From Metallosphaera sedula DSM 5348 (GTDB lineage Archaea; Thermoproteota; Thermoprotei_A; Sulfolobales; Sulfolobaceae): a stretch of 64,000 nucleotides of DNA. The notes beneath the pieces are model-generated. The model was not told the origin of the DNA and did no database searches. It saw only the letters and a list, made by a program, of their open reading frames with translations. The position numbers and the translations under genes are program-made. Position 1 is the first letter of the stretch; each line of letters opens with the position of its first letter. The stretch spans positions 992,001 through 1,056,000 of the forward strand of contig NC_009440.1 of NCBI RefSeq assembly GCF_000016605.1, written 5' to 3'. Shown here piece after piece: positions 6,322 through 63,981 of this stretch.

Positions 6322-7167
6322 ATGATACTTGCAGAGAACCTCACAAAGGTGTACGGGAAGAGGCCAGTTCTAGACTCGCTTAGCTTCCGCGTGGAGAAGG
6401 GTTCCATCACAGGGTTCATTGGCCCCAACGGAGCAGGGAAGACTACCACGATCAAGATAGTCACGGGGTTACTTAAGAGGACCTCAGGGAAAGTGGAGGT
6501 CATGGGAATGGATCCCTGGAACAACCCTAGGATCTACGAGAAGGTTGCAATCATCTTCACAAGTATATACCACCCCCAAGAGGTCAAGGTAAAGGAATAT
6601 CTCCACGACGTGGGGAGAGTATACGAAAGGGATCCCAGGGACCTCATCGAGGAGTTTGGCCTAACTCCTCATCTGGACAAGAGGCTCTCCCAGCTCTCCT
6701 CAGGGCTGGCACAGAGGGTCCAGTTGGTCTCAGCACTCATAAGGGATCCAGATCTGATCGTCGCCGACGAACCGACGGCCAACTTGGATCCCAAGGCAAG
6801 ACTCGAGTTCTATGACGTAGTCGGGAGACTTCACCGCAAGGGAGTGACCTTCTTCATTTCCTCCCACATCCTTTCTGAGCTCGAGAAAGTGATAACTCAC
6901 GTGGTGTTCATCAATAGGGGAAGGGTCACCTTTTCGGGTACAATAAATCAAGCCCTCAAGGTCGAGGAGGGTGAGATCTACCTCCTCGTTGATGACCCGG
7001 AGAGGGCACTCCAAGTTCTCGGAAAGGGCGTGCTAGAGGGAGGCTACATAAAGGTGTTCGGGAACCTTCGTGAGGTCGTGGACCTCTTGGACGAGCATGG
7101 CATCAACGTGATCACTGTGAGGAGGTCGTCTCTAGATGAGGCATTCAAGAGGTTTTCAAATATTTAG
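6322..7167 (+). CDS. ABC transporter ATP-binding protein
   Basis: The 281-residue protein has Walker [10 protein letters not shown] (34-42), a signature loop LSSGLAQR (a variant of LSGGQ), Walker [13 protein letters not shown] and a switch His in SSHILSE, followed by a regulatory tail of about 75 residues of the kind found in gliding/CcmA/DrrA-type exporters. It powers the permease encoded by the next gene, whose start overlaps this gene by 32 bp. ATATATTAACC about 30 nt before the start codon is the operon promoter. It acts at the inner face of the membrane. Confidence 0.9.
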
Positions 7168-50390: not shown

Positions 50391-50966
50391 TCACTCCTCC
50401 TTTAGAAGGGCGTTCAAGTTCCTCAGCACTTTCTCCCTATTCTCCATAAGAAGGTTACCTCCCTGAGCGTCTATGGCCACAAAGGCAGGTCCTAAGGAGT
50501 TTACCTCAACCTCGAAGAGTGCCTCTCCCCTGAGGTCCTCCCACCAAACCTTGTTAACCCTCTGTATGGATGAGGTAGCTAGTGCAGCGGCGCCTCCCAC
50601 GAAAAGGAGGTACACCGACTTGGCCCTTGAAAACTCTGGGTTCATCCTCTCGCTCAGCTCTCCCTTCCCTACAATACCCTTCACCCCAAGCTCATTGAGG
50701 AGGCGAGGAATATACTTTTCCATGCGCTGGGAAGTGGTTACCCCAACTGAGAGGATTGTGTACCCGTTGGAGTCCTTTGTGAAGCTTGGTGCCCCAAAGA
50801 ATACAACCTGGTCTTTCAAGTTTACAGGTGGAGCAACTCCCTGCTCGAAGATTCTCCTGAGGGTAGCGTCTCTCATGATGTAAATTTTCCCTGAGAGGTA
50901 TACCTCTTCTCCAAGACGTAAAGATTGGACAACGTCCTCCTTGAGTGGAGTTTCCAATTTACTCAT
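50391..50966 (-). CDS. fumB: Class I fumarate hydratase, beta subunit
   Basis: A 191-residue protein (from ATG 50966, with GGTGAT a few bases upstream; the frame opens three codons earlier) homologous to the C-terminal domain of class I fumarases: IYIMRDATLRRIFEQG, VFFGAPSF, SVGVTTSQRMEKYIP, GIVGKGELSE and GPAFVAIDAQGGNL. With the alpha subunit it makes the 4Fe-4S enzyme that interconverts fumarate and malate. It is encoded between fumA and sdhA. Confidence 0.85.
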   Translation of the reverse strand: MSKLETPLKEDVVQSLRLGEEVYLSGKIYIMRDATLRRIFEQGVAPPVNLKDQVVFFGAPSFTKDSNGYTILSVGVTTSQRMEKYIPRLLNELGVKGIVGKGELSERMNPEFSRAKSVYLLFVGGAAALATSSIQRVNKVWWEDLRGEALFEVEVNSLGPAFVAIDAQGGNLLMENREKVLRNLNALLKEE

Positions 50967-50967
50967 C

Positions 50968-51852
50968 TCAATCACCCATGTTAACCTTCATGTCGAGGGT
51001 TACCTCAGCCGTAGCCCTTTCTCCCCTCCAACACTGGACGTTCACGGCAACGGGCAAGCTACTTATGTGTGTTTCCCCAATTTCAACGTGAACCCCTATG
51101 GCCGTGAACTTTCCTCCAACACCCATGGGACCCACTCCCAACCCATTCACCAGGTAGAAGAGCTCCTCCTCAAGTTTAGCTCCCTCAGGGTCCGAGCTCC
51201 TGGATCCCACAGGACGCATAACTGCCCTCTTAGCTAAGTGAGACACCGATTCGAAATCTCCTCCAATTCCTACCCCCACTATGTAGGGAGGGCATCCCTT
51301 CCCTCCAGCGTTCGCTATGGTCTCTAACACGAACTTCTTCGCCCCCAAGATACCATCCGCGGGCCTAAGCATTTTCAGGGATGACATATTCTCAGAGCCT
51401 GAGCCCTTCGGTAGGGCGGTAATTCTTATTTTATCCTTTAGTTCTTCGTTGATTTCAAAGTGTATTATTGGTGAACTTCTCCCCGTGTTATCACCCGTGT
51501 TTTCCCTAGTAATGGGATGTACCATGTTGGGTCTCAAGTGATACTTCAGCGTAGCTTTCCTCACGCCCCGCGCGATACTATCCCTAAGCTTAGGAAGGGA
51601 GATCTCGAAATCTCCCAGCTCTACGGAGTACACTGGCGTTCCCGTATCTTGACATACAAGTAGGTTCCTTTTGGTCGCTACCTCTATGTTCTTCATTATC
51701 GTATCCAACACTCGCCTTCCCAGCTCACTTTGTTCCATCTCGTAGGCCTTTCCTATTCTTTCAACCACGTCCTTTGGAATGACTGTAAGGGCCTTATAGT
51801 AAAGAGTTTCTGATACCTCCTCTACAAGGCTATAGAAAGTATCCGAAGTCAT
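50968..51852 (-). CDS. fumA: Class I fumarate hydratase, alpha subunit
   Basis: A 294-residue protein with the cluster-binding Cys motifs LLVCQDTGTPVY and GKGCPPYIVGVGIGG, plus RENTGDNTGRSSPIIHFE and ALPKGSGSENMS, as in archaeal two-subunit fumarases. The third Cys is near CWRGERAT. It is the first gene of the fum-sdh operon. GGTATATATATC (51874-51885) is the likely TATA element, and a GTATAC palindrome lies just upstream (51891-51896). Confidence 0.9.
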   Translation of the reverse strand: MTSDTFYSLVEEVSETLYYKALTVIPKDVVERIGKAYEMEQSELGRRVLDTIMKNIEVATKRNLLVCQDTGTPVYSVELGDFEISLPKLRDSIARGVRKATLKYHLRPNMVHPITRENTGDNTGRSSPIIHFEINEELKDKIRITALPKGSGSENMSSLKMLRPADGILGAKKFVLETIANAGGKGCPPYIVGVGIGGDFESVSHLAKRAVMRPVGSRSSDPEGAKLEEELFYLVNGLGVGPMGVGGKFTAIGVHVEIGETHISSLPVAVNVQCWRGERATAEVTLDMKVNMGD

Positions 51853-51890
51853 TAACTATAGTAAGATGAGCATGATATATATACCTTTCT

Positions 51891-51896
51891 GTATAC
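51891..51896. promoter_or_regulatory. GTATAC palindrome, site 1 (fum-sdh operon)
   Basis: TCTGTATACCA lies 39 bp before the fumA start, directly upstream of its TATA-like element (51874-51885). It is one of seven such sites in this region. Confidence 0.55.
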
Positions 51897-52072
51897 CAAT
51901 TAGTATATAATGATTATTCGGTAAGTTTCTATCCTTTCGAAGACATTAGGGTTTATTATCTTGAGATCATGGTCTGAAATCATCTGCTCAATAACCTAAC
52001 ACTTTGTTATGCGATTACAGCTGAATGCTTAAGTTCGCGTTTAGGTTATGACTATGATATACTTTATCTATG

Positions 52073-52119
52073 TTAGCCCAGGACCTATGGTTCGCCATAA
52101 ACCTATAACTCTAGGCTAA
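52073..52119. repeat. Hairpin with TTCG tetraloop inside an outer stem
   Basis: TATGG (52086-52090), TTCG loop, CCATA (52095-52099), enclosed by TTAGCC (52073-52078) and GGCTAA (52114-52119). UUCG loops are very stable in RNA, so this could be a small RNA or a terminator for the leftward MFS gene that ends at 52353. Confidence 0.4.
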
Positions 52120-52206
52120 GGTTCTCTCCTAATTCTTCGTCTATCATGCGTAGTCACGTTCATATATCCTACTGTCAACGACGTGTATTTTTATCGGTTC
52201 AAGATC

Positions 52207-52256
52207 TGGCTACATCACTGTCAAGGGAAACTATTTGTATCAATTGGCTACATCAC
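52207..52256. repeat. Pair of 12 bp direct repeats
   Basis: TGGCTACATCAC occurs at 52207-52218 and 52245-52256, 38 bp apart, in noncoding DNA. Two copies only, with no CRISPR-like continuation. Confidence 0.5.
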
Positions 52257-52352
52257 GACAATCCCAATACGCTCTCTAACGGATGGTTATATTGATAAAG
52301 AAAATAAAAAACTTTTATAATAAACTATCCTCTATAATACAATGATCTGCAG

Positions 52353-53738
52353 TTATCTAAATCTATCAGTTATTTCTTCTAACGACTTTCCTTCCACCGA
52401 ACCCCTCTTACCAACCAATATCATTACGGTCATAACTCCAATAAGAGATAATAATCCTAGGAAAGCGTATAGAGCCGGAACACCACCTAATGATAACAGC
52501 ACAGGTTCAATGAACCCTGTTGACGCCAGGGATAGCCTAAATGCCATTATGTTAATTCCAGATGCTATACCTCTCATGTTTGTAGGATATAGCTCTGCAC
52601 CCCAATTTATAATGATTGTCTGAGAAAATACGCTACTCCCATTGGAGATGAATATCAAGGGAAGTAGGGCATCCACATTATGCGTTAGCGGAATTATCAG
52701 TAACGTAGAAATTATTAATACAGTACCTCCTATTATCAGTGAATTTAATCTACCAATTTTATCTGTAATAAGAGCTAAAATTAAAGTAAATACGATTTCT
52801 GATACCCAGACAACTGGGACTTGCAACAGCACTGAAGTAAGCTTAGACAATCCCAAACTCTGCGTGATGTAAGGGAAGAAATAGGTGGATAGTCCTGCGG
52901 GCATAGCGGTAGCATATATCCCAATAAACGTTGGGACAATGAGGAGAAGTAACAGAGGTATATTTTTACGAATATTGAATGAACTAGTGATATTATTTAC
53001 CGTCTCTTGGGGTGAACTCCCCGTGACCTTCCTTACCGCCTCAACTGCCTTATCAGTTTTTCCCTTGAATAGAAGCCATCTAGCAGACTCTGGGACAGTA
53101 AACCTTAATCCTGCTCCGATAATGATGGGTATCAAGCCTGTCACGAATATAATTTTCCAGATTTCTGGTGAGATCGACGATATTGACAAAAAGTAGTAGC
53201 TCACCAGTGTTCCGACCACAAGTCCGCTTTGCGCCAGTACCCAAAACAGCGCCAATATTCTTCCCCTAATTGCCTTTGGCGCAAACTCAGACAGAAACGG
53301 CAGTGCGGCGCCGTAATCGCCCCCTATTGCAAAACCTGTTAGTATCCTGAATAGCTCAAACTCGTGGAAGTTAGTGGCAAATATGGACAAGGTCGCAAAG
53401 ACAAGCATAACAACCAAATCCACGAAGAACATTCTAGCTCTGCCTAGGAGGTCCACCAGTGGTCCCCAAGTTATTGCGTCTATCAATATACCTATATTAA
53501 GAAAGAACACGAATTGGCCATAGACTGACGTCGTCACAGAGAAATACTTTAAATAACTCAAGCTGGACGGTGTCAATATCCCCGCAGTGTTATAATAATC
53601 GGCAAATGCTCCTATTCCAGCTACCAATAGAATGAAAAATATCTTTCTATTGGAGCGAATATTATCCAATGCATCAAATGGGTTATGAGTCTTTTTTACT
53701 CCTTCACTATCCTTGTCTGGATTACTCTTGATAACCAT
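52353..53738 (-). CDS. MFS transporter, sugar/organic-acid porter type
   Basis: A 461-residue, 12-helix carrier: LLVAGIGAFADYYNTAGIL (helix 1), GPLVDLLGRARMFF (motif A), GFAIGGDYGAALPFLSEFAPKAIRGR after helix 4, PESARWLLFKGKTDKA and ITDKIGRLNSLIIGG. It is a proton-linked importer of the sugar-porter-like group. A GTATAC palindrome 27-32 bp before its ATG links it to the catabolic genes around it. Its codon use is more AT-rich than genes left of 50 kb. Confidence 0.85.
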   Translation of the reverse strand: MVIKSNPDKDSEGVKKTHNPFDALDNIRSNRKIFFILLVAGIGAFADYYNTAGILTPSSLSYLKYFSVTTSVYGQFVFFLNIGILIDAITWGPLVDLLGRARMFFVDLVVMLVFATLSIFATNFHEFELFRILTGFAIGGDYGAALPFLSEFAPKAIRGRILALFWVLAQSGLVVGTLVSYYFLSISSISPEIWKIIFVTGLIPIIIGAGLRFTVPESARWLLFKGKTDKAVEAVRKVTGSSPQETVNNITSSFNIRKNIPLLLLLIVPTFIGIYATAMPAGLSTYFFPYITQSLGLSKLTSVLLQVPVVWVSEIVFTLILALITDKIGRLNSLIIGGTVLIISTLLIIPLTHNVDALLPLIFISNGSSVFSQTIIINWGAELYPTNMRGIASGINIMAFRLSLASTGFIEPVLLSLGGVPALYAFLGLLSLIGVMTVMILVGKRGSVEGKSLEEITDRFR

Positions 53739-53762
53739 ATGTATGCACTCTCTTATATAATG

Positions 53763-53772
53763 TTGTATACAA
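53763..53772. promoter_or_regulatory. GTATAC palindrome, site 2 (MFS transporter)
   Basis: TTGTATACAA is a perfect 10 bp palindrome 25-34 bp before the MFS start, at the position of the TATA box, where binding would repress. Confidence 0.6.
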
Positions 53773-53881
53773 TGTTTCTTAAATAGTTTTTGTTATTTAA
53801 TAGTACAACGTGTTTTATGCTCAATGAGAATTTTTAGAAAGCCGATTTCATTAGTTATTAGTATCTCCACATCATTATAGA

Positions 53882-55246
53882 TTAATCCTTATTAATTAGG
53901 TAACGACTCCAGGCTAGCTCAACGAACTTGCCAGGATTCATAAAGTGGTGCGGATCGATACAACCTTTAATGTCATTCATGATTTTAAGAACCTCAATGC
54001 CGTTATGAGCTGTTAACTGTTCCTTCATTAAATCAGCTTTCATGTAGCCTATTCCATGTTCACCCGAAATTGATCCTCCTAGTACTATTGCTATCCTTCC
54101 TATCTCGTCATAGATTTTCGTAAGTCGAGGATCGTCTCTACTCGAGATCAGAATATTTGGGTGTAAATTTCCGTCAGCTATGTGCCCCAAAATGGCTATC
54201 TTAACGCCGCTCTTTTCCTCAAGTTCCTTAATTTTCATAAAAGCTTCATCAAGTTTAGATAGGGGCACAACAATGTCCTCCGAAACTCTTTCGTTCCACT
54301 CAGCCTTTAGGGCCAGTCCTGCCAAGGCTCTTTCCGATAGAGTTTTATCCTCATCCACCTCTGTGAATGTAATAGAGTGCTGTCTTAACACTTTTTCAAT
54401 TTTTTCTCGATAAGTCGAAGAAGAGGATAGTGTAATCGTCCCACCGACGCTCTCCGGTATATTAGTATTAAAATGTTTATTTATTGTTTTAGCTACTAAT
54501 CCATCCATATATTCTGCCACATCTATAACGACGCGATTCTTTCTAAGTTCCCTGATTATCTCGGTACCTTGTCTGAAGTCAGACAGTTCCATCATGATCG
54601 AGTATTTTACCTCTTCAGGGACAGGAATGATCTTGAACCAAATCTCCGTCACTATGCCAAGCGTTCCCTCACTACCCACGAAGAGGTGAACTAAGTCGTA
54701 CCCGGCTCTATTCTTGACGAACGGCTCACCAACTCTTATCACCTTTCCAGATGGTAAAACCACCTCTAAGGCAAGCACCCAGTCTCTGAAAGTGCCGTAC
54801 CTTACACTTCGCATACCTCCTGAGGCGTTATTGACTACTCCTCCCACGGAACATGCAAAGGAACTAGCAGGCTCGGGAGGTATGAAGAAGCCGATTTTTT
54901 TAAGCTCATCATTTAATTTTGAAAGGATCAAGCCCGGTTGTACTCTCACGTACCATTCCGTATCATTTATCTCGACTATCTTGTCCATGAACTTCATGTC
55001 AATTAAAATACAACCATCACATACCAAGTGCCCGGCTAAACTGGTACCTCCACCCCAGACTACGATGGGTAAACCATGTTCTCTTGCAATATTTACTATT
55101 TTCGCTACTTCCTCAGTTCTAGATGGGTAAGTCACCACGACTGGTCTTACTCTATTATTGAGGAAATCTGTCCTTTCTTCCAACGAACACTTAATTCCAT
55201 CCAATTCCCTTAGAATGTTTTCGGACAAAGAAATCCACATTCTCAA
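53882..55246 (-). CDS. FAD-linked oxidase, GlcD/D-lactate dehydrogenase type
   Basis: A 454-residue flavoprotein of the VAO/PCMH family: RPVVVTYPSRTEEVAKIV, the FAD pyrophosphate loop VWGGGTSLAGHLV, ASSFACSVGGVVNNASGG, SEGTLGIVTEI, and the C-terminal catalytic/metal motifs GHIADGNLHPNILI and SISGEHGIGYMK. It oxidises a D-2-hydroxyacid (lactate, glycolate, 2-hydroxyglutarate or similar) to the 2-oxoacid. It is divergent from the aldehyde dehydrogenase with 82 bp between, and may share the GTATAC control site there. Confidence 0.85.
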   Translation of the reverse strand: MRMWISLSENILRELDGIKCSLEERTDFLNNRVRPVVVTYPSRTEEVAKIVNIAREHGLPIVVWGGGTSLAGHLVCDGCILIDMKFMDKIVEINDTEWYVRVQPGLILSKLNDELKKIGFFIPPEPASSFACSVGGVVNNASGGMRSVRYGTFRDWVLALEVVLPSGKVIRVGEPFVKNRAGYDLVHLFVGSEGTLGIVTEIWFKIIPVPEEVKYSIMMELSDFRQGTEIIRELRKNRVVIDVAEYMDGLVAKTINKHFNTNIPESVGGTITLSSSSTYREKIEKVLRQHSITFTEVDEDKTLSERALAGLALKAEWNERVSEDIVVPLSKLDEAFMKIKELEEKSGVKIAILGHIADGNLHPNILISSRDDPRLTKIYDEIGRIAIVLGGSISGEHGIGYMKADLMKEQLTAHNGIEVLKIMNDIKGCIDPHHFMNPGKFVELAWSRYLINKD

Positions 55247-55322
55247 TTGAGTCTTTACTCTTTATTAGTTTTTACTTATTACAAAGGTCAATAATAAGGT
55301 TTATAATGAAGAATACTGAATT

Positions 55323-55328
55323 GTATAC
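55323..55328. promoter_or_regulatory. GTATAC palindrome, site 3 (aldehyde dehydrogenase)
   Basis: AATTGTATACATGG lies directly before the aldehyde dehydrogenase ATG (55329), about 20 bp after TATA-like GGTTTATAATG, so a bound protein would cover the transcription start. Confidence 0.6.
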
Positions 55329-56765
55329 ATGGAAGCTCTAATAGGAGGAAAAAGAATCTCATCCGAGTCTAAGATATCGGTTAGGAATCCTGCAACCATG
55401 GAGACAGTGGATACGGTTCCCTTGCTGTCAAGGGAGCAAGTTAAGGAAGCCATAGAGTCAGCATGGACAGCTCTAGATGCCTTGAATTCTCTTTTAATTG
55501 CAAAAAGGTCAAGGCTACTCCTCCAGGTTTCGCAGTTGATTAGGGAAAACCTCCAGGAACTCGCAATAACAATGACTAGGGAGACAGGTAGACCAATAAA
55601 GAGTTCCAAGGGTGAGATAGAGAGGACAGCACAGATCTTTGAGCTTGCGTCCTCTGAGGTAAGGAGGGTTTTTGAGGGCAAATATATACCCCTACAAGAG
55701 TACGAATTTCCTGCAGGAAACGAGAGGAGGATGGCCTTAATCACTAGGGAACCCATAGGTGTGGTGGGAGCCATTACTCCTTTCAATTTCCCGGCAGCCA
55801 GTTTCGCTCATAAAGTCGCTCCCTCTCTTGCAGTGGGAAACAGTGTAGTGTTTAAGCCCTCATCCCTGACCCCCTTGACACAACTGAAACTGGGGGAACT
55901 AGTATCAAGAGTTTTCCCTCCTGGTGCCATTAACGTGGTTACAGGGGATTCTAGCATGATAGGAGACGAATTCGTAACAAATCCCAAGGTTAGCGTGATC
56001 ACCTTCACTGGCTCTGCGTCTGTGGGACTGGGACTAGCAAGTAGAGCCATAAGGGAAGGTAAAAGGGTTATCATGGAGCTAGGGGGAAGCGACGCCATGA
56101 TAGTACTGGAGGATGCTGACCTAAAGAGGGCCGTTAAGTCCGCGTTGTTGGGCAGGTACGACTTCGCGGGCCAGTTCTGTAACGCGACCAAGAGAGTCAT
56201 AGTCAGAAAGGAGATAGAGGACAAGTTCTCGGCCCTATTGCGTGAGGAAGTAAGCAAGCTCAGGATTGGGGATCCGCTAGACGAAAACACCGACCTATCC
56301 CCCTTAATATCTGGGGAGGCTAGGGAAAGGATGAAGCTATTTCTAGACGATGCCGTCTCCAAAGGGGGAGAAATAATATACAAGGGAGAAGTTCAGGAGA
56401 GGGGCAACTATTTCCCTCCCGTAATCCTTAGATTGAGGCCCTTCTCCGACCTTAAGGTACTTAAGGAGGAAGTCTTTGGACCGATTCTTCCCATAGTGAG
56501 CGTAGATAGCGATGACGAGGCCGTGGACGTGGCTAACTCAACTGAGTATGGACTTGACGCATCTATCTTCACAAAGGACTTCGGCAGAGCTCTAAGGATT
56601 GCCTCTAGGTTAAAGGTCGGAACGGTTGTGATAAACGATACCACCAGACTAAGGTGGGATAATCTCCCCTTTGGAGGTACAAAGAAAAGCGGAATAGGAA
56701 GAGAGAGCGTCCTAGACACAATGCTTGAAATGACAGAGACAAAACTAATAGTCTATAGTGATTAA
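55329..56765 (+). CDS. Aldehyde dehydrogenase
   Basis: A 478-residue NAD(P)-dependent ALDH: ITPFNFPAASFAHKVAPSLAVGNSVVFKPSSLTPL, FTGSASVGLGLA, general base Glu in VIMELGGSDAMIV (about 255-267), nucleophile Cys in FAGQFCNATKRVIV (about 281), and EEVFGPILPIV. It oxidises an aldehyde to the acid, likely the product of the decarboxylase or another step of the local pathway. It is divergent from the FAD oxidase, with a GTATAC site immediately before the start. Confidence 0.9.
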   Translation: MEALIGGKRISSESKISVRNPATMETVDTVPLLSREQVKEAIESAWTALDALNSLLIAKRSRLLLQVSQLIRENLQELAITMTRETGRPIKSSKGEIERTAQIFELASSEVRRVFEGKYIPLQEYEFPAGNERRMALITREPIGVVGAITPFNFPAASFAHKVAPSLAVGNSVVFKPSSLTPLTQLKLGELVSRVFPPGAINVVTGDSSMIGDEFVTNPKVSVITFTGSASVGLGLASRAIREGKRVIMELGGSDAMIVLEDADLKRAVKSALLGRYDFAGQFCNATKRVIVRKEIEDKFSALLREEVSKLRIGDPLDENTDLSPLISGEARERMKLFLDDAVSKGGEIIYKGEVQERGNYFPPVILRLRPFSDLKVLKEEVFGPILPIVSVDSDDEAVDVANSTEYGLDASIFTKDFGRALRIASRLKVGTVVINDTTRLRWDNLPFGGTKKSGIGRESVLDTMLEMTETKLIVYSD

Positions 56766-56791
56766 AAAATTTTTATCTTTTTATAAATTTT

Positions 56792-58157
56792 CTATTTCCA
56801 TAATTTCTCCAGCGATTTCCCCTTTGTTTCTGGCATCATTACTACGGTTGCAATGAACGCCACAATTGCTGCAGCTAGCATGACGTATAACGATTCATGG
56901 AATGACATCAAAGGAAATACAGCCGTAGAGAAACCTGCTGCAATAATCCTAGAAACTCCTTGCTTCCAGCCCTCCATTGTGCCCCTGATCCTCGTGGGAG
57001 CAAGCTCCGCTGAAAGATCCAAGTGGAGCCCACCCTGGAAATTCAAGAAAAGTGCCAACAATGAGTAAATGACCAAGAGGGCAATCTTACCTACGGTACT
57101 GGGGACGAATATTAACGCCAAGAATGCAAGGATACTGCCTATCCATCCTATGCTAGCCATGGGTTTACGCCCAAACCTATCAATTGTATAGGCAATGATC
57201 AGTATTGCAATAATATTCTCGATCCAAAATAAGGCACCCGCAGTCTCCACAGGTATCTTCAAGGAAGTGGCGAAGAGTGAGCTGAGAACACCCGCTGCGA
57301 CGAACGCTATCTGATAGCCAGTATAATATATTGCAATAAACGCTGAGTTCCTAGAGAATTTCGTCAATAGTTCTTTATAATACGTGGTTCTTAACTTTCT
57401 CTACCTTGGCGGACTTAATCGCTTGTTTTTCCTCGTCTGAAAGAGGTCTCTCTATGACCCTTTCCACTACGGCAATAGCTTCGTCAACTCTATTCTGCTC
57501 CAGGAGCCATCTTGGCGATTCTGGACTACCCAGTCTGGCCACAGCGATTATGACAGCAGGTATTATTGCAGAGGCAACGGCAAACCTCCATGCATCTAAA
57601 CCTCCAACTGACAATAGCCAGTAACCTACCAATATTGCAGCTAAGGCTCCTATGGGATAGAAAAGAATATCGTATGCCATGAACTTGCCTCTAGACTTGA
57701 CAGGAACAAATTCCGAAAGATATGAGCTGGAGATGGGATAATCGAGACCTACACCGATTCCGACTAGTAGTCTGAGCGCAAATAGCATATACCCATTTAA
57801 CGAGAATGCCGACAACCCTGCTATTATGACGAAGAAAACCAGGTCTATGATAAACATTGTCTTTCTTCCTATCTTATCCACGAGGTAACCCGAGATTAAG
57901 GCCCCTATACCTGTTCCTATGACTACTGCAACCCCGATAGCAGTCACTAACAATGCGGTGAGATGAAATACGGACTTAAGTTGGTTTAAAACCGGAGTCA
58001 GCACGACCGTATTATATGCGTCTACGAATACTCCTCCTCCCACGAGCAAGAGCATCTTATAGTGGAACCATTTTTCCTTCGAGAGATCTAGATTGTTGAA
58101 TAGTCTCTCCTTTACCTCTTCCCATGAAAGCGATTTATCTGCCATAACATTCCTCAT
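56792..58157 (-). pseudogene. MFS transporter broken by a +1 frameshift
   Basis: Two frames give the N-terminal half (260 residues, with FHYKMLLLVGGGVFVDAYNTVV, YLVDKIGRKTMF, GIGVGLDYPISSSYLSEF and PESPRWLLEQNR) and the C-terminal half (191 residues, with YTIDRFGRKPMAS and ELAPTRIRGTMEG) of one sugar-porter-like MFS protein. Skipping one base near AACCAC at about 57385 joins VEKVKN to TYYKELLTKFSRNSAF in one frame of about 455 residues. It could be a recent mutation or a sequencing error. The upstream region has a GTATAC site. Confidence 0.8.
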
Positions 58158-58493
58158 TATAGATTAGAGCATGTAGTATATATTTTTTTATTATATGTCA
58201 TATCTTATGCTGTATACTATAACGAATTCACTGTCATATACATAGTGATAGTCTTCTGTAGTGTCTGAAACGTTAGAGAATGTACCAATGCCTAGATGAG
58301 GGATTTTACCATTCGGATATCAAGGTGGAACATATTGGTGAAGGAGACGGTTATAGGCAATGAATAAGGTCTAGGTGTCATGTATATCCGGGCACTTCTG
58401 GGAGCCTTTCCCTACACGGAGATCTTTACCTATTTAAAGGCCCAAATAGTCTATAAAAATAATTAGATTATGTATTTTTTAATAATAAAAATA
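58158..58493. other. Intergenic region between two transporter genes
   Basis: 336 bp, AT-rich at both ends. It contains a GTATAC site at 58212-58217 and TATA-like AATATATACTAC near 58180. I see no gene. Confidence 0.5.
58212..58217. promoter_or_regulatory. GTATAC palindrome, site 4 (frameshifted MFS gene)
   Basis: GCTGTATACTAT lies 55 bp before the MFS start and about 25-30 bp upstream of its TATA-like element, an activator-like position. Confidence 0.5.
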
Positions 58494-59966
58494 TCATTCC
58501 AGGGGTAGCTCTTTCTTTATTAGATCATTTAGATCGATGTTTTTAGTCCGTTTGTTATACATTTTTGCGATTTCATAGATGAGGAAACCTATCACTATAA
58601 CCAATATCACTTGAAACGAGGGTTGAAGGAGAATTGAAACGTGGGGTACAACGGCGACGCTTGGAATAATAATAAGCGTGACTATTATACCTGCTAACCC
58701 TGCTATGATCGCACCTATTGTCGTCACTTCCTTTTCCCATTCTTTCTTGCTACTCTTGGTCGAGATAAGAAGTACCCCTGCCCCGAGAGCCATCATCTCA
58801 AGTAGGACAGAGAGGGATCTTACGTCCACAGCGGACACACCCACGCTAGTTGTATAAACTAGGTATATTGATGCAAATAGCGCGCATACCAGCAGGGAGA
58901 AGTCGGGTGCCTTAAACTTGTTAGTGTGAGTGAAGACCTCAGGAAGTATCTTGTCTTGGCCCCAGGCAAAGAGCGTTCTACTGGAGGTAAGTAACTGGGG
59001 CATGATTGTCTTCATTATAATAATTGTAACTATGATTGAGAATATAGCTCCGATAAGTTTCGGTTCAGATATGCTCAGTATGCCAGGAATGGTAGCGTAA
59101 TAGGAATACTTTGATTTTATTAACGCAAACACTTGCCCTCCAGTTATTGCGTGGAAGACTGCAAGCGAAACTAAGGTAAACAGGACTAACGCAATCAACC
59201 ACGCTAGGAATATACCCCTTGGCATGTCCTTTTTGGGATCCTTAGCCTCTCCACCTAGGAGAGGGGCCGCGCTTATGCCCGCATACGCAAAAATGAACAG
59301 GGTTACTGTACCGAAAATATCCGAGTAAGTTAGGGGAGGTGTAGTGTAACTGGGAATCGTTCCATGAAATATTTGACTCGATAAATAACCAGTGTAGACA
59401 GAATTAGCGGTGCCGAAACCCGCAACCATTGATATGATTGCCCCTAGCAAAACGAGGGCAAACAGCAGAGTTACCACAACTCCATAGCTTCTCACGCCCG
59501 TGTAATGAATTAAGAAGAAGGACCATATTAGGGCCAACCCCAGCACAATATGCCCTGTAAATGTAGCGAACCACGCCCCAGAGGATATCCCCAATGACAC
59601 GAGTGTTGAAGCTAGGGTAGATCCAACAGTGTAGCTAATGAACCCTATGGCAGATACTATTCCAATCCAGTATAGAAAGTGAACAATAAATCCCACCTCC
59701 GGAGTGGTAGTTCTAGATATCCAGACGTATTGTCCTCCGCTTCTGCTTGCCACCTTGCCAAACTTCTGATACATGAATACCTTGGGAAGCATGAGCAATC
59801 CAGTTATGAACATGATTGCTGGAACAAGGTTGAGTATGGCAGGATATGATCCAATACTCTGTGTGGCTACCGCGTTGATACCAGCTCCGTATTCTTGACT
59901 TACTGCCGAGGCTATTATGGCCACGGGTCCTATTACCTTCGCCAATTTGAAAGGTTTGTCTGACAC
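58494..59966 (-). CDS. APC family amino acid/organic cation permease
   Basis: A 490-residue, 12-helix transporter of the amino acid-polyamine-organocation superfamily: IASAVSQEYGAGINAVATQS in helix 1, SGGQYVWISRTTTPEVGF in helix 3, and FIFAYAGISAAPLLGGEAKDPKKDMPRGIFLAW, the typical APC signature. It should import an amino acid or related compound, probably the growth substrate of the local pathway. It starts with GTG 59966. Two GTATAC sites bracket its TATA region. Confidence 0.85.
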   Translation of the reverse strand: MSDKPFKLAKVIGPVAIIASAVSQEYGAGINAVATQSIGSYPAILNLVPAIMFITGLLMLPKVFMYQKFGKVASRSGGQYVWISRTTTPEVGFIVHFLYWIGIVSAIGFISYTVGSTLASTLVSLGISSGAWFATFTGHIVLGLALIWSFFLIHYTGVRSYGVVVTLLFALVLLGAIISMVAGFGTANSVYTGYLSSQIFHGTIPSYTTPPLTYSDIFGTVTLFIFAYAGISAAPLLGGEAKDPKKDMPRGIFLAWLIALVLFTLVSLAVFHAITGGQVFALIKSKYSYYATIPGILSISEPKLIGAIFSIIVTIIIMKTIMPQLLTSSRTLFAWGQDKILPEVFTHTNKFKAPDFSLLVCALFASIYLVYTTSVGVSAVDVRSLSVLLEMMALGAGVLLISTKSSKKEWEKEVTTIGAIIAGLAGIIVTLIIIPSVAVVPHVSILLQPSFQVILVIVIGFLIYEIAKMYNKRTKNIDLNDLIKKELPLE

Positions 59967-59982
59967 ATGAATATATGCTTCT

Positions 59983-60012
59983 GTATACTTTAAAAACTTT
60001 TATATAGTATAC
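59983..60012. promoter_or_regulatory. GTATAC palindromes, sites 5a and 5b (APC permease)
   Basis: CTGTATACTT (core 59983-59988) and TAGTATACGA (core 60007-60012) are 24 bp apart and flank the AT-rich TATA region TATATAAAAGTTTTTAAA read on the minus strand, 17 and 41 bp before the start codon. Confidence 0.6.
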
Positions 60013-60269
60013 GATAGATTATGTCAAATCTTACCGATATCTAATCATTCTGTGGGTAGACATTTTTCAGTTCAATTACGGTTTAGCCTCGAGAAATATT
60101 GCAGTAGTCAAGACACGCAAAACTGGGAAAAATGCTGTTAGTCCATGGAGCTGAGGCCACACATCCCGTGTTAAGTCAGCTTCGCTTCTTGCACGTTGAA
60201 CCTAGAGCTATTTCCTGTCCAGATCCCTATACTCCATGGAGGAATTGAGATGGGCTTAATAGGGAGAGC
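60013..60269. other. Intergenic region before the LDH2-family gene
   Basis: About 257 bp with no gene and no GTATAC site. GGCTTAATAGG at 60253-60263 is the likely promoter element of the rightward dehydrogenase. Confidence 0.4.
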
Positions 60270-61256
60270 ATGTCTGTCTTAAACAGGATGAACGTCAGCG
60301 CAGAAGAACTGAAATCCATTATCGTGGAGATATTGAACGAAAGGGAAGTCGAGGGAAGCGAGGTTATAGCGGACCACATGGTTGAGGCAGAACTTAGGGG
60401 ACACTCCTCTCACGGAGTTCAGAGATTGATACCCCTTGTGAAGGGGGTAGAACTAGGAACGATCTCAAGGAGATTACAATACGACGTCCTAAAAAAGGAG
60501 AGGGGATCCATGTGGATCGATGGAAAACATAGCGTCGGAATAGTCCTGTGGAACCAATTAATCCAACACGAGTTCGACGAACCCTCCAGTGTCATAGCAG
60601 TGAAGAATGCTTCCCACATTGGTTTCCTAGGTTATTACACGGATAAACTAGCCACACGAGGTTATGTGGGGATCATGTTTGGAAATGCCGAGCCCGCGGT
60701 AGTTCTCCCCGGTACCTCAAGGAAACTCCTGTCCACAACGCCCCTCTCAATTGGTATTCCCCATGCCCCTCCCATTGTCTTGGATATGGCCCTGTCATCC
60801 ACGTCAAGGGGGAAAATATTGGAGGCCCAGAGAAAGGGCGAACCCATACCCGAGGGATGGGCAGTGGACAGCGAGGGAAAACCGACCACCGATCCTGAGC
60901 TTGCCCTAAGGGGTGGGATACTCCCAATCGGGGGAATAAGGGGTTTCTACCTCATGCTAGTCCTTGAAATACTGACGTCATTCATTTCGGGATCGGCAAT
61001 GGGTCCTAACGTGAAGGGGGTACTTAACACTGAAAATCCTCCTAATAAGGGAGAAATATTGATTGTAATAAATCCATTCTACTTTGCGTCTTACACTGAA
61101 CAGATCGATGAAATCAGGAAACTTCTGGGAATGGAGTTCCCTGGGGAGCACGGCCTTCAATTGAAGGCCAGGAGGCTGACCGAGGGCATACCCATTGATG
61201 CACAGCTTTGGAGTACTCTGGTCAAGATGAAGGAAAAGATTCCCTTCTTTATCTAG
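60270..61256 (+). CDS. LDH2/malate-sulfolactate dehydrogenase family oxidoreductase
   Basis: A 328-residue NAD(P)-dependent dehydrogenase of the LDH2 family: AELRGHSSHGVQRL (substrate His, about 44-57), NASHIGFLGYYTDKLATRGYVGIMFGNAEPAVVLPG (His and nucleotide site), NTTPLSIGIPHAPPIVLDMALSS-type segment, GWAVDSEGKPTTDPELALRGGILPIGG. Members oxidise malate, sulfolactate, ureidoglycolate or sugar acids. ATG 60288 (six codons later) is another possible start. It lies 109 bp before the UxaA-like pair. Confidence 0.85.
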   Translation: MSVLNRMNVSAEELKSIIVEILNEREVEGSEVIADHMVEAELRGHSSHGVQRLIPLVKGVELGTISRRLQYDVLKKERGSMWIDGKHSVGIVLWNQLIQHEFDEPSSVIAVKNASHIGFLGYYTDKLATRGYVGIMFGNAEPAVVLPGTSRKLLSTTPLSIGIPHAPPIVLDMALSSTSRGKILEAQRKGEPIPEGWAVDSEGKPTTDPELALRGGILPIGGIRGFYLMLVLEILTSFISGSAMGPNVKGVLNTENPPNKGEILIVINPFYFASYTEQIDEIRKLLGMEFPGEHGLQLKARRLTEGIPIDAQLWSTLVKMKEKIPFFI

Positions 61257-61309
61257 TTCAGTCTTTCTCATGTTTCGACGTTCCCCGCAGATTTTCATTC
61301 TCTTGTTTT

Positions 61310-61315
61310 GTATAC
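61310..61315. promoter_or_regulatory. GTATAC palindrome, site 6 (lyase operon)
   Basis: TTTTGTATACAGTATG lies 50 bp before the small UxaA-like gene and upstream of its TATA element AGTATATTAATA. A related GTATATAC follows at 61322-61329. Confidence 0.6.
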
Positions 61316-61364
61316 AGTATGGTATATACACAAAGTATATTAATAACAGATACATTCTTAACAT

Positions 61365-61652
61365 ATGCCACGAGGTCTTATTCATTCGGAAAAGGATGAT
61401 GTGTGCGTGGCCACCACAGACGTCAAAAAGGGAGAGGAAGTTCTTTGCGCGTATTTAGAGAACAACTCTAAACATGAGATAATCAAGACCTTAGATGATG
61501 TTCCCCTGGGTCACAAAATAGCACTCAGGGACATAAGGCAGGGGGAGAAGGTACTAAAATACGGTAGGCCGATTGGTGTGGCCACCACCAACATATCCAA
61601 GGGACAACATGTCCATATTCACAACCTCAAATCCATAAGGTGGTCAAAATGA
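61365..61652 (+). CDS. UxaA N-terminal (SAF domain) protein, small lyase subunit
   Basis: A 95-residue SAF-domain protein: DVCVATTDVKKGEEVL, IKTLDDVPLGHKIALRDIRQGEKVLKYGRPIGVATTNISKGQHVHIHNL. It corresponds to the N-terminal domain of altronate/galactarate dehydratases and to SuyA of sulfolactate sulfo-lyase. It overlaps the large-subunit gene by 13 bp. With the partner it should eliminate water or sulfite from a hydroxyacid, using Fe. Confidence 0.8.
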   Translation: MPRGLIHSEKDDVCVATTDVKKGEEVLCAYLENNSKHEIIKTLDDVPLGHKIALRDIRQGEKVLKYGRPIGVATTNISKGQHVHIHNLKSIRWSK

Positions 61653-62809
61653 TGACAATCAAGGGTTACATAAGGGAGAATGGAGCTGTTGGCGTAAGGA
61701 ATCACGTCCTGGTTCTTCCCTTGGATGACCTTTCCAATTCCGCAGCCTTGGGGGTTTCCAAGATAGTTAACGGTGTCGTGGCTGTTCCTCACCCCTACGG
61801 TAGGTTACAGTTTGGTAGAGATCTTGACCTCCTATTTCACATCCTTTCAGGGACCGGGGCGAACCCAAACGTCGCTGGGGTCATCGTAATAGGGATTGAG
61901 GACAATTGGGCCAATAGGGTGGCAGACGGTATCGCCAAGACAGGTAAACCCGTTGAGGTCTTCCCCATTGAGGGATACGGTGACCTAAAGACCATTGAGA
62001 GGGCCTCAAGGAAGGCCAAGGAGATGGTTCAGGAGGCAAGCGAGAAACAGCGCACAGAGGTGGACATTTCTTCCATTGTTATGAGCGTTAAGTGCGGGGA
62101 ATCTGACACTACCTCGGGTTTAGCATCTAACCCCTCCGTCGGGGTCGTGGTGGATAAGATGGTTGACCTGGGAGCAGTTGCCATGTTTGGCGAAACCTCA
62201 GAGCTTACGGGTGCAGAGGACATCGTAGCTGACAAGATGGCCAACGAAGCCTTAAGGGAAAAGTTCCTGAAGATCTATAGGGAGTACATTGACGTGATAG
62301 AAAGGGAAGGTGCGGATCTCCTTGGATCCCAGCCCACCCAAGGAAACATTAAGGGAGGACTCTCCACGATAGAGGAGAAAGCGCTAGGGAACATTCAAAA
62401 GCTCGGACATAGGAAGGTTAACTGCGTCCTTGATTACCTAGATCCTCTGGTTAGGGAGAAGCAAGGTACCCTATGTTTCGTGAACACCTCATCAGCGGCT
62501 GCCGAGGCGGTGACGTTGTTCGCCGCTAAGGGATCAGTGCTCCACCTGTTCACCACGGGTCAAGGAAATATTGTGGGTCACCCCTTAATACCTGTGATAA
62601 AGATAACTGGCAATCCCAAGACGGCTAGAACCATGAGTGAGCATATAGATGTGGACGTTTCGGATCTGCTAGACCTCAAGATCTCGCTAGAGGAGGCTGG
62701 AGAGAGGGTGTTCAATTACATGCTTAGGGTCATGAACGGAAGGTTAACTGCCGCCGAGGTACTTCACCATGAGGAGTTCTCGCCGATAAAACTATACATA
62801 AGTGCATAA
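61640..62809 (+). CDS. UxaA family hydrolyase, large subunit (altronate dehydratase / SuyB-like)
   Basis: A 389-residue protein: GYIRENGAVGVRNHVLVLPLDDLSNSAA, PHPYGRLQFG, VIGIEDNWANRVAD, VMSVKCGESDTTSGLASNPSVGVVVDKMVDLGA, FGETSELTGAED, STIEEKALGNIQKLGH, and CFVNTSSAAAEAVTLFAAKG. These are UxaA/GarD C-terminal domain motifs, here encoded as a separate chain as in archaeal altronate dehydratase-like proteins and SuyAB. It acts on a sugar acid or on sulfolactate, which sequence alone cannot separate. Confidence 0.8.
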   Translation: MVKMMTIKGYIRENGAVGVRNHVLVLPLDDLSNSAALGVSKIVNGVVAVPHPYGRLQFGRDLDLLFHILSGTGANPNVAGVIVIGIEDNWANRVADGIAKTGKPVEVFPIEGYGDLKTIERASRKAKEMVQEASEKQRTEVDISSIVMSVKCGESDTTSGLASNPSVGVVVDKMVDLGAVAMFGETSELTGAEDIVADKMANEALREKFLKIYREYIDVIEREGADLLGSQPTQGNIKGGLSTIEEKALGNIQKLGHRKVNCVLDYLDPLVREKQGTLCFVNTSSAAAEAVTLFAAKGSVLHLFTTGQGNIVGHPLIPVIKITGNPKTARTMSEHIDVDVSDLLDLKISLEEAGERVFNYMLRVMNGRLTAAEVLHHEEFSPIKLYISA

Positions 62810-62838: not shown

Positions 62839-63981
62839 GTGAACATTCAGATTTTTCCCCTATCTATTCCATTTTTTACTGATCCTGTGTCAGAATTTTC
62901 TGATCAATGGTCAGTGCAGTTATACGTGAAGGCAAGTTGGGATGACGTGAGTGGTTGGGGAGAGACCGGCGTCTTCGGGAGCGGAATACTAGGGGCCTAC
63001 GTCTCAATCCTCAAGGAATTGATTGTCCCTCTTCTCAGTAGGTATCCCATCACCTTACCTTACGACGTTGAGACCTTCCTAGAGAAGGTAATGTTAACAG
63101 CGGGTAACTGTGGAGTTGTTACGGGGGCCATAAGCTCAGTGGAAATGGCCATGTGGGACGCTAGGGCAAGGAAGCTTAACACGTCCCTGGCGGAAATGCT
63201 TGGCGGGAGGGTTAGGGAAAGGGTGCCCGTTTACGGCAGTTTCCCAAGGTTTAAGTCCAGTGAGGATGTCGTATCCACTGTAGTTAAGACGACCGAGAGA
63301 GGTTACAAGATGATCAAGTTGCATCAACCTCCGTCCTCCGTGGTGGAGGACCTCCACGAGATCAGGGAGAAGATCGGATACGACGTGAAGGTTGCCCTAG
63401 ACATGAACGCTCCCTTCGACCTGGAGAGCGCGAAGAAGTTCGTGGACGCGGTGGCTAAATACGAGGTGGAGTGGGTAGAGGAGCCCATCTGGCCCTTGGA
63501 TGATTACGATTCATTGAGAAAGCTATGCGATTACTCCCCTGTACCCATAGCTGCAGGGGAGAACGAGTACACCATACACGGCTTCAGGAGGCTATTGGAG
63601 ACCGGAATCGCCTACCTTCAACCTGACATAGCCAAGATTGGGGGAGTAAGTAAGTTCCTGAAGGTTCTGGACTTAGCCTCAGGTTATAACGTGAAGGTTG
63701 CCCCGCATGACAGGCCAGATTCCTCACCGCTTTCCTTGATGTATGTCCTTCAGATCGCCTCCGCAAGGTCCGAAATTAGTATCATAGAGTTCACCATCTC
63801 GGATTTTCCATCAGGTTTATTCGAAAACATACCCAGATTTCGTCACGGGACACTGGAGGTTCCAGCGGGTCAAGGTATTGGGCTCAAAGTTAAAGAAGAT
63901 CAACTAGAAAAATATTCTTACGAGGAAAAACTAAGAATACTCGCCTTTAGCGACCTTGAAGCCAAACTAAGGGATAAATAG
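62839..63981 (+). CDS. Enolase superfamily acid-sugar dehydratase/racemase, mandelate racemase subgroup
   Basis: A 380-residue enzyme. The N-terminal capping domain is followed by a beta barrel with K160-x-H162 (second strand), metal ligands D188-x-N190, E215 and E241, and the catalytic His290-Asp263 pair (PHDRP and QPDIAKIGG) that defines the mandelate racemase subgroup. It removes the proton next to a carboxylate in a sugar acid or hydroxyacid. It starts with GTG 29 bp after the UxaA-like gene, in the same operon. The exact substrate cannot be assigned. Confidence 0.85.
   Translation: MNIQIFPLSIPFFTDPVSEFSDQWSVQLYVKASWDDVSGWGETGVFGSGILGAYVSILKELIVPLLSRYPITLPYDVETFLEKVMLTAGNCGVVTGAISSVEMAMWDARARKLNTSLAEMLGGRVRERVPVYGSFPRFKSSEDVVSTVVKTTERGYKMIKLHQPPSSVVEDLHEIREKIGYDVKVALDMNAPFDLESAKKFVDAVAKYEVEWVEEPIWPLDDYDSLRKLCDYSPVPIAAGENEYTIHGFRRLLETGIAYLQPDIAKIGGVSKFLKVLDLASGYNVKVAPHDRPDSSPLSLMYVLQIASARSEISIIEFTISDFPSGLFENIPRFRHGTLEVPAGQGIGLKVKEDQLEKYSYEEKLRILAFSDLEAKLRDK

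Follow-up and report, generated by a model that had tools for sequence, protein, structure and literature searches.

A cluster of acid-catabolism genes towards the right end of a 64,000-nt stretch of the Metallosphaera sedula DSM 5348 genome (NC_009440.1, 992001-1056000; hereafter the window, whose own positions are used below) carries a short palindrome, GTATAC, ahead of its gene starts; we describe these boxes here together with an FCD-type GntR regulator that very probably reads them. M. sedula is a heat- and acid-loving archaeon with a genome of 2,191,517 bp in one contig, and the boxed operons are those of organic-acid uptake and breakdown.

The cluster begins on the minus strand with a fumA-type gene for the alpha subunit of a class I fumarase/tartrate dehydratase (50968-51852; PF05681 2.8e-94, PF05683 5.7e-34), whose beta subunit is encoded at 50391-50975, and with a gene for an MFS transporter, MFS1 (52353-53738; PF00083 6.8e-37). 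A gene for a GlcD-like FAD-linked 2-hydroxyacid oxidase (53882-55246, minus strand; PF01565/PF02913; TIGR00387 at 9e-94, below cut-off) diverges from that for an aldehyde dehydrogenase (ALDH; 55329-56765, plus strand), whose top match is lactaldehyde dehydrogenase NF040648 at 1.6e-146, also below cut-off. A second, split MFS transporter, MFS2 (56792-58157), and an APC-type permease (58494-59966; PF13520 1.5e-35) follow on the minus strand. The remaining genes lie on the plus strand and encode an Ldh_2 family hydroxyacid dehydrogenase (60270-61256; PF02615 4.4e-84), the SAF-domain small subunit (61365-61652; PF08666 1.6e-8) and the large subunit (61640-62809; PF20629 1.1e-83, PF04295 1e-33; GarD 6u7l 5.8e-32) of a galactarate/altronate-dehydratase-type lyase, and a mandelate racemase/enolase-superfamily sugar-acid dehydratase (62839-63981; PF13378 1.5e-50). 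All matches to the family models for galactarate dehydratase, sulfolactate dehydrogenase and lactaldehyde dehydrogenase fell below their cut-offs.

The first-pass annotation had listed seven GTATAC copies, always ahead of a gene start, and all seven were located where it placed them, 6-60 bp ahead of start codons. The fumA box (51891-51896) starts at -44 relative to the start codon and is accompanied by two weaker boxes, ATATAC at 51903-51908 (-56) and GTATAT at 51879-51884 (-32), the latter overlapping the TATA box. The MFS1 box (53765-53770, -32) is a perfect TTGTATACAA, with GCATAC at 53741-53746, 24 bp away on the opposite side of the TATA box; the ALDH box (55323-55328, -6) abuts the ATG, also lies about 80 bp before glcD, and has GAATAC at 55311-55316 beside it. 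Ahead of MFS2 the box at 58212-58217 (-60) is flanked by weaker ones at 58236-58241 (24 bp) and 58176-58181 (36 bp). The APC permease promoter has two exact boxes around its TATA box, as first described, one upstream (60007-60012, -46) and one downstream (59983-59988, -22), and the promoter of the lyase (uxaA) operon has an exact box at 61310-61315 (-55) with weaker ones, GTATAT at 61322-61327 (12 bp) and another at 61335-61340.

This density is far above expectation. The seven intergenic gaps from fumA to the lyase operon (51853-61364, 1,498 bp) hold 7 GTATAC copies where 0.69 are expected from dinucleotide-preserving shuffles, none of which reached 7 (n = 20,000; highest 6), bearing out the earlier rough estimate of less than one copy in about 1.5 kb of non-coding DNA; the palindromic hexamers most often met there are GTATAC and TATATA. 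Across the whole window the count is 15 against 10.2 expected, which is not a clear enrichment, and genome-wide there are 417 copies in 2.19 Mb (about 1 per 5.3 kb), the reversed control giving 371. It is the non-coding DNA of the cluster that shows the excess; outside the six promoters the window has 8 further copies, all coding. Two of these, at 6619 and 27601, had been noted as chance copies inside genes; such copies do occur, although there are eight and not just two. The accompanying idea that the boxes lie mostly inside TTGTATAC(A/T) did not hold, since only three of the seven sites (53765, 55323 and 61310) read TTGTATACA. As a motif, TTGTATAC occurs 45 times genome-wide against 48 for the reversed control, mostly in coding sequence; being no commoner than the control and largely coding, the extended form is not a specificity determinant.

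The regulator that the first-pass annotation looked for to the right of the window is indeed there. A gene for a 219-residue FCD-type GntR protein (genome positions 1056016-1056675, L032:16-675, plus strand; PF07729 FCD 9e-27, PF00392 GntR 2.7e-15) begins 16 bp beyond the window end and is the next gene of the lyase operon after the enolase-superfamily dehydratase. Its AlphaFold2 model (pLDDT 89.5) combines a winged helix with an all-helical C-terminal domain: the N-terminal GntR part, for which PF00392 scores above cut-off, has three helices and two strands, and the FCD domain of about 150 residues has seven helices between residues 71 and 216. The YtrA-type short C-terminal domain (about 50 residues, two helices) was not found in the protein, nor was an N-terminal extension of the NanR kind, the first helix starting from residue 5. 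The nearest solved folds are Atu1419/VanR (6za7, 2.6e-11), a Brucella GntR protein, McbR, PmiR, AlkR and the inducer domain of DhdR, which superposes on the model at 2.4 A with a TM score of 0.86 to the target. The recognition helix SRTPVREAL is conserved among homologues, and N129, H133, H177 and H199, which follow the FCD metal-ligand pattern D/N-x3-H, H, H, are invariant in 13 of them. We take these four residues to be the places of the FCD metal ligands; FCD domains hold carboxylates via a metal. The genome encodes only two FCD proteins, this regulator and a paralogue at 989239-989910. A query of named genome contigs with the regulator found no relatives there. After the regulator come hydantoinase/oxoprolinase A and B genes (L032:935-4389), which the relatives examined do not have at this place.

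We compared the neighbourhoods of the orthologous regulator in related genomes; counts for the Sulfolobaceae, the window's own family, refer to 31 genomes. GTATAC stands in 30 of 41 promoters of target orthologues and in 21 of 376 other promoters (Fisher 4e-23), and with the window's genome left out it stands in 24 of 34 against 19 of 313 (p = 9e-18), p-values that overstate the case and are only indicative because the genomes are related. It ranks first of 64 palindromic hexamers in target versus other promoters, and best of all hexamers when the window's genome is left out. The box is thus not equally frequent before unrelated genes, and in orthologous promoters it is kept as an island in otherwise diverged sequence; both tests support the putative regulon of six transcription units that the first-pass annotation had proposed from a shared palindrome.

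The individual promoters bear this out. Ahead of fumA the box, N6 and GTATATATA align in G072 and G120; at the ALDH start GTATACATG is conserved in three of three species, and the MFS2 box in four of four. Both MFS1 boxes are exact in G072, 24 bp apart, and the exact APC pair keeps its 24-bp spacing in G102. The lyase promoters align as GTATAC-N6-GTATAT, and among the 16 Sulfolobaceae with the gene 13 have the exact box, two have GTATGC and one has none; in G050 and G121, where regulator and lyase operon lie far apart, the box still precedes the lyase operon. Where the regulator gene has its own promoter, a box precedes it in G122, G123, G124 and G125.

Regulator and lyase also travel together. 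Full-length regulator orthologues (at least 46% identity) and the lyase large subunit share one and the same set of 16 genomes among the 31 Sulfolobaceae, a coincidence with a chance of 3e-9 if the genomes were independent. G114, which lacks the lyase gene, has a regulator gene interrupted by stop codons. The lyase operon is the core target across genera, to judge from these comparisons, with fumA, the permeases and ALDH as additions in the window's genus. Among lyase genes of more distant families no box was found in the 5 examined, though some of them are perhaps not true orthologues. In a distant family, GTATAC lies 23-24 bp before the start of the FCD GntR gene itself in 2 of 5 genomes (35-38% identity; L064, G054:C1:1300032, and L067, G081:C12:29417). 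The lyase large-subunit gene of G131 (L087, G131:C1:2518804-2519754) is interrupted by an opposite-strand open reading frame (ORF) of 316 residues, possibly an inserted element.

Two of the target genes merit comment. The fumA-type gene occurs in 4 of the 31 Sulfolobaceae, all of the window's genus and all with the regulator; a housekeeping role for fumAB is unlikely, because 27 of the 31 relatives do without these genes and another locus encodes a class II fumarase/aspartase-family protein, and the enzyme may instead be a substrate-specific dehydratase, for example for tartrate. The fumA- and fumB-type genes adjoin succinate dehydrogenase genes. MFS2, correctly recognised earlier as frameshifted, comprises ORFs of 260 (57375-58157) and 191 (56792-57367) residues in M. 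sedula and a single intact ORF of 450-457 residues in G102, G072 and G120; its operator box is still conserved, and a sequencing error is possible.

Weaker boxes stand at spacings of 12, 24 or 36 bp to the main box and surround the TATA box. When GTATAC copies with no or one mismatch were counted near each main box, one species per promoter, 9 of 12 partner boxes fell on these spacings: 12 and 12 bp for fumA, 12 for ALDH, 12 for the lyase operon, 24 for APC, 24 for MFS1, 24 and 36 for MFS2, and 36 in the regulator's own promoter in G123. None of 5,000 permutations reached 9, either for 12 bp or for any period of 9-20, and around 176 other GTATAC sites, taken as a control, 8 of 80 partners lay at multiples of 12 against 7.4 expected, which is no register. 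Three promoters outside the rule-finding set gave 12 bp (glcD of G072), 24 bp (MFS3 of G072) and a misfit of 29 bp (MFS of G078). Most promoters have a single cluster of boxes within about 60 bp. The APC promoter holds the sole perfect 24-bp pair in the genome; box pairs at 12 and 24 bp occur at 5 and 9 places genome-wide, three of each in the cluster. Seven outside loci inspected for extra regulon members with phased pairs were all coding except one, at 28.5 kb, after a malic enzyme gene. Beside the regulator cluster of two relatives, three GTATAC boxes lie between divergent genes (L059, G078:C1:2568562-2568721, and L087, G131:C1:2516914-2517074), the nearest two 29 bp apart and off register; these are probable extra targets.

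What the register reflects is less certain. Our tentative proposal is that dimers may assemble across the TATA box on boxes that keep strictly to 12-bp steps, the TATA element itself perhaps being one weak operator box, so that the step taken by the strong box could vary between species while the register stays. Some GTATAT partners coincide with the TATA box, and part of the 12-bp spacing could consequently be a fixed distance between operator and TATA box; that the whole register is such a distance, with no array of binding sites, strikes us as rather unlikely though it deserves to be taken seriously. The GTATAT partner does overlap or form a TATA-like element in the fumA and lyase promoters. 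The partners are not TATA boxes, however, in the 24-bp pairs at APC and MFS1, at ALDH (12 bp) or in the regulator promoter (36 bp), and the strong fumA box of G102 is shifted upstream, relative to the other species, by exactly one 12-bp step, with the register kept.

Taken together, we consider it very likely, from genome comparison, that the GTATAC boxes are operators through which the local FCD-type (FadR/VanR subgroup) GntR repressor jointly controls the cluster, with several dimers occupying boxes at 12-bp steps until a ligand releases them. Target promoters, whether linked to the regulator gene or not, keep GTATAC, which matches the FadR-subfamily operator NyGT(M)-N0-1-(K)ACNy. The protein is most likely a ligand-released repressor of hydroxy- and sugar-acid catabolism; we infer binding, sign and ligand as follows. 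A regulator dimer would read the palindrome through its SRTPVREAL recognition helix, and dimers, perhaps cooperatively, would occupy the main box together with the weaker ones spaced from it in 12-bp steps, spanning or surrounding the TATA box, the TFB-recognition element (BRE) and the start site. Given the positions of the boxes around the TATA box and start codon, such occupancy would block TBP/TFB or RNA polymerase. As the targets handle hydroxy- and sugar acids, the ligand is probably such an acid: when a hydroxycarboxylate or sugar acid, metal-held in the FCD domain, accumulates, the regulator would release the DNA, and MFS, APC, ALDH, GlcD, FumAB, the lyase and the dehydratase would be turned on together with the regulator itself.

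Several observations weigh against so simple a picture. G119 has the regulator and the lyase gene and no box, and it is in G126 and G118 that GTATGC replaces the exact box. In G050, G121, G118 and G126 no exact box precedes the regulator gene itself. The Ldh_2 gene has no box nearby in M. sedula, although it is boxed in G050, G122, G123 and G125.

The boxes of fumA, MFS2 and the lyase operon, moreover, lie upstream of the TATA box, where they would also suit an activator. The same regulator might then bind just upstream of the BRE and recruit TFB/TBP in a ligand-dependent manner, as XylR does on the Ara box (AACATGTT), a Sulfolobales precedent for a palindromic box with an activator (PMC7264815). 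We think this improbable: in three species the ALDH box directly adjoins the start codon, and at APC and MFS1 the two boxes of a pair lie on either side of the TATA box, one of them close to the start site, places suited to repression; moreover, the characterised relatives Atu1419, NanR and YtrASa are repressors.

If the operators belonged to another regulator, the foremost candidate would be the second FCD GntR protein (989239-989910), the only other one in the genome, whose gene lies 54 kb left of the cluster and is itself preceded, 46 bp before the start, by a GTATAC. We rejected it on co-occurrence and conservation, and ownership by any other regulator now appears very improbable. G102 and G120 keep the boxes in target promoters without this paralogue, which speaks against it; its relatives in G126, G125, G032 and G072 have no conserved box, and its recognition helix differs (SRNTIRLAL). 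The paralogue adjoins PIG-L, RraA-like, DUF6282 and 2-hydroxyacid dehydrogenase genes (whole locus L031:10670-14910), of which the PIG-L/RraA neighbours recur beside it in the same four genomes, and its operator does not look like GTATAC. It is hardly credible that promoters of these archaea carry GTATAC in general, as a by-product of the TATA box: the boxes do lie near TATA boxes and TATATA is also over-represented in target promoters, but GTATAC outranks every TATA-like hexamer and several of the few other promoters that have it are plausible extra targets.

The GTATAC boxes and the local FCD-type repressor would give a concrete, testable archaeal regulon with predicted operator, targets and regulator, in which a bacterial-type repressor code is placed on TATA/BRE promoters. 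Bacterial acid and sugar-acid catabolism has FCD-type GntR proteins among its most frequent regulators; in the open-access literature searched, no FCD-type GntR regulon is described in Archaea, and YtrASa was called the first experimentally studied archaeal GntR in 2019 (PMC6746942). The cluster offers a candidate ligand-inducible promoter set for a biomining archaeon and suggests a likely shared physiological role for transporters and enzymes so far annotated by family only. Beyond the first-pass annotation, the analysis adds the regulator family, the 12-bp register of secondary boxes and the lyase operon as core target across genera.

Among known systems, the Sulfolobus 'FadR' (PMC6449355) is a TetR protein unrelated to this regulator. 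The XylR/Ara box is alike at the level of the box, an 8-bp palindrome common to several carbon-utilisation promoters, and differs in sequence and in having an activator. YtrASa of Sulfolobus acidocaldarius (PMC6746942) is a GntR-family repressor with a palindromic core over the start site and secondary half-sites, but it belongs to the YtrA subfamily, with a short C-terminal domain, a 14-bp motif and just two membrane-protein targets. The operator consensus of the FadR subfamily is NyGTM-N0-1-KACNy; several groups leave a 2-nt gap, and weaker boxes are found 7-12 nt off (PMC4494728). The regulons with a 2-nt GT/AC gap (GntR, UxuR, HypR, MdcY and PrpR) share with ours the GT-2 nt-AC palindrome, weaker adjacent boxes and sugar-acid or organic-acid catabolism, whereas none of the 634 regulators in that survey is archaeal. 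E. coli NanR (PMC8012715), also an FCD GntR repressor, places several dimers cooperatively on closely spaced GTATA-containing boxes, and M. sedula promoters likewise have closely and evenly spaced boxes; NanR, however, binds direct GGTATA repeats and owes its cooperativity to a 32-residue N-terminal extension that the M. sedula regulator lacks.

The closest parallel, and the best fold match (2.6e-11), is Atu1419 of Agrobacterium fabrum, a GntR/FCD protein of the VanR subgroup (PMC7797058; PDB 6za3/6za7). It binds ATGTATACAT, an operator with the same GTATAC core, has a metal in its FCD effector domain, regulates itself as well as an acid-catabolism cluster, and recognises degenerate second palindromes. 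It differs in acting at bacterial sigma-70 promoters, in the spacing of its boxes, which lie 109-190 bp apart and are bridged by a looping tetramer, against the 12, 24 or 36 bp of M. sedula, in sharing only about 25% identity with the M. sedula regulator and in having a folate derivative as effector. The operator code is thus the known bacterial one, and the M. sedula system would be a known kind of regulon in a new domain of life, set apart by its distinctive spacing rule.

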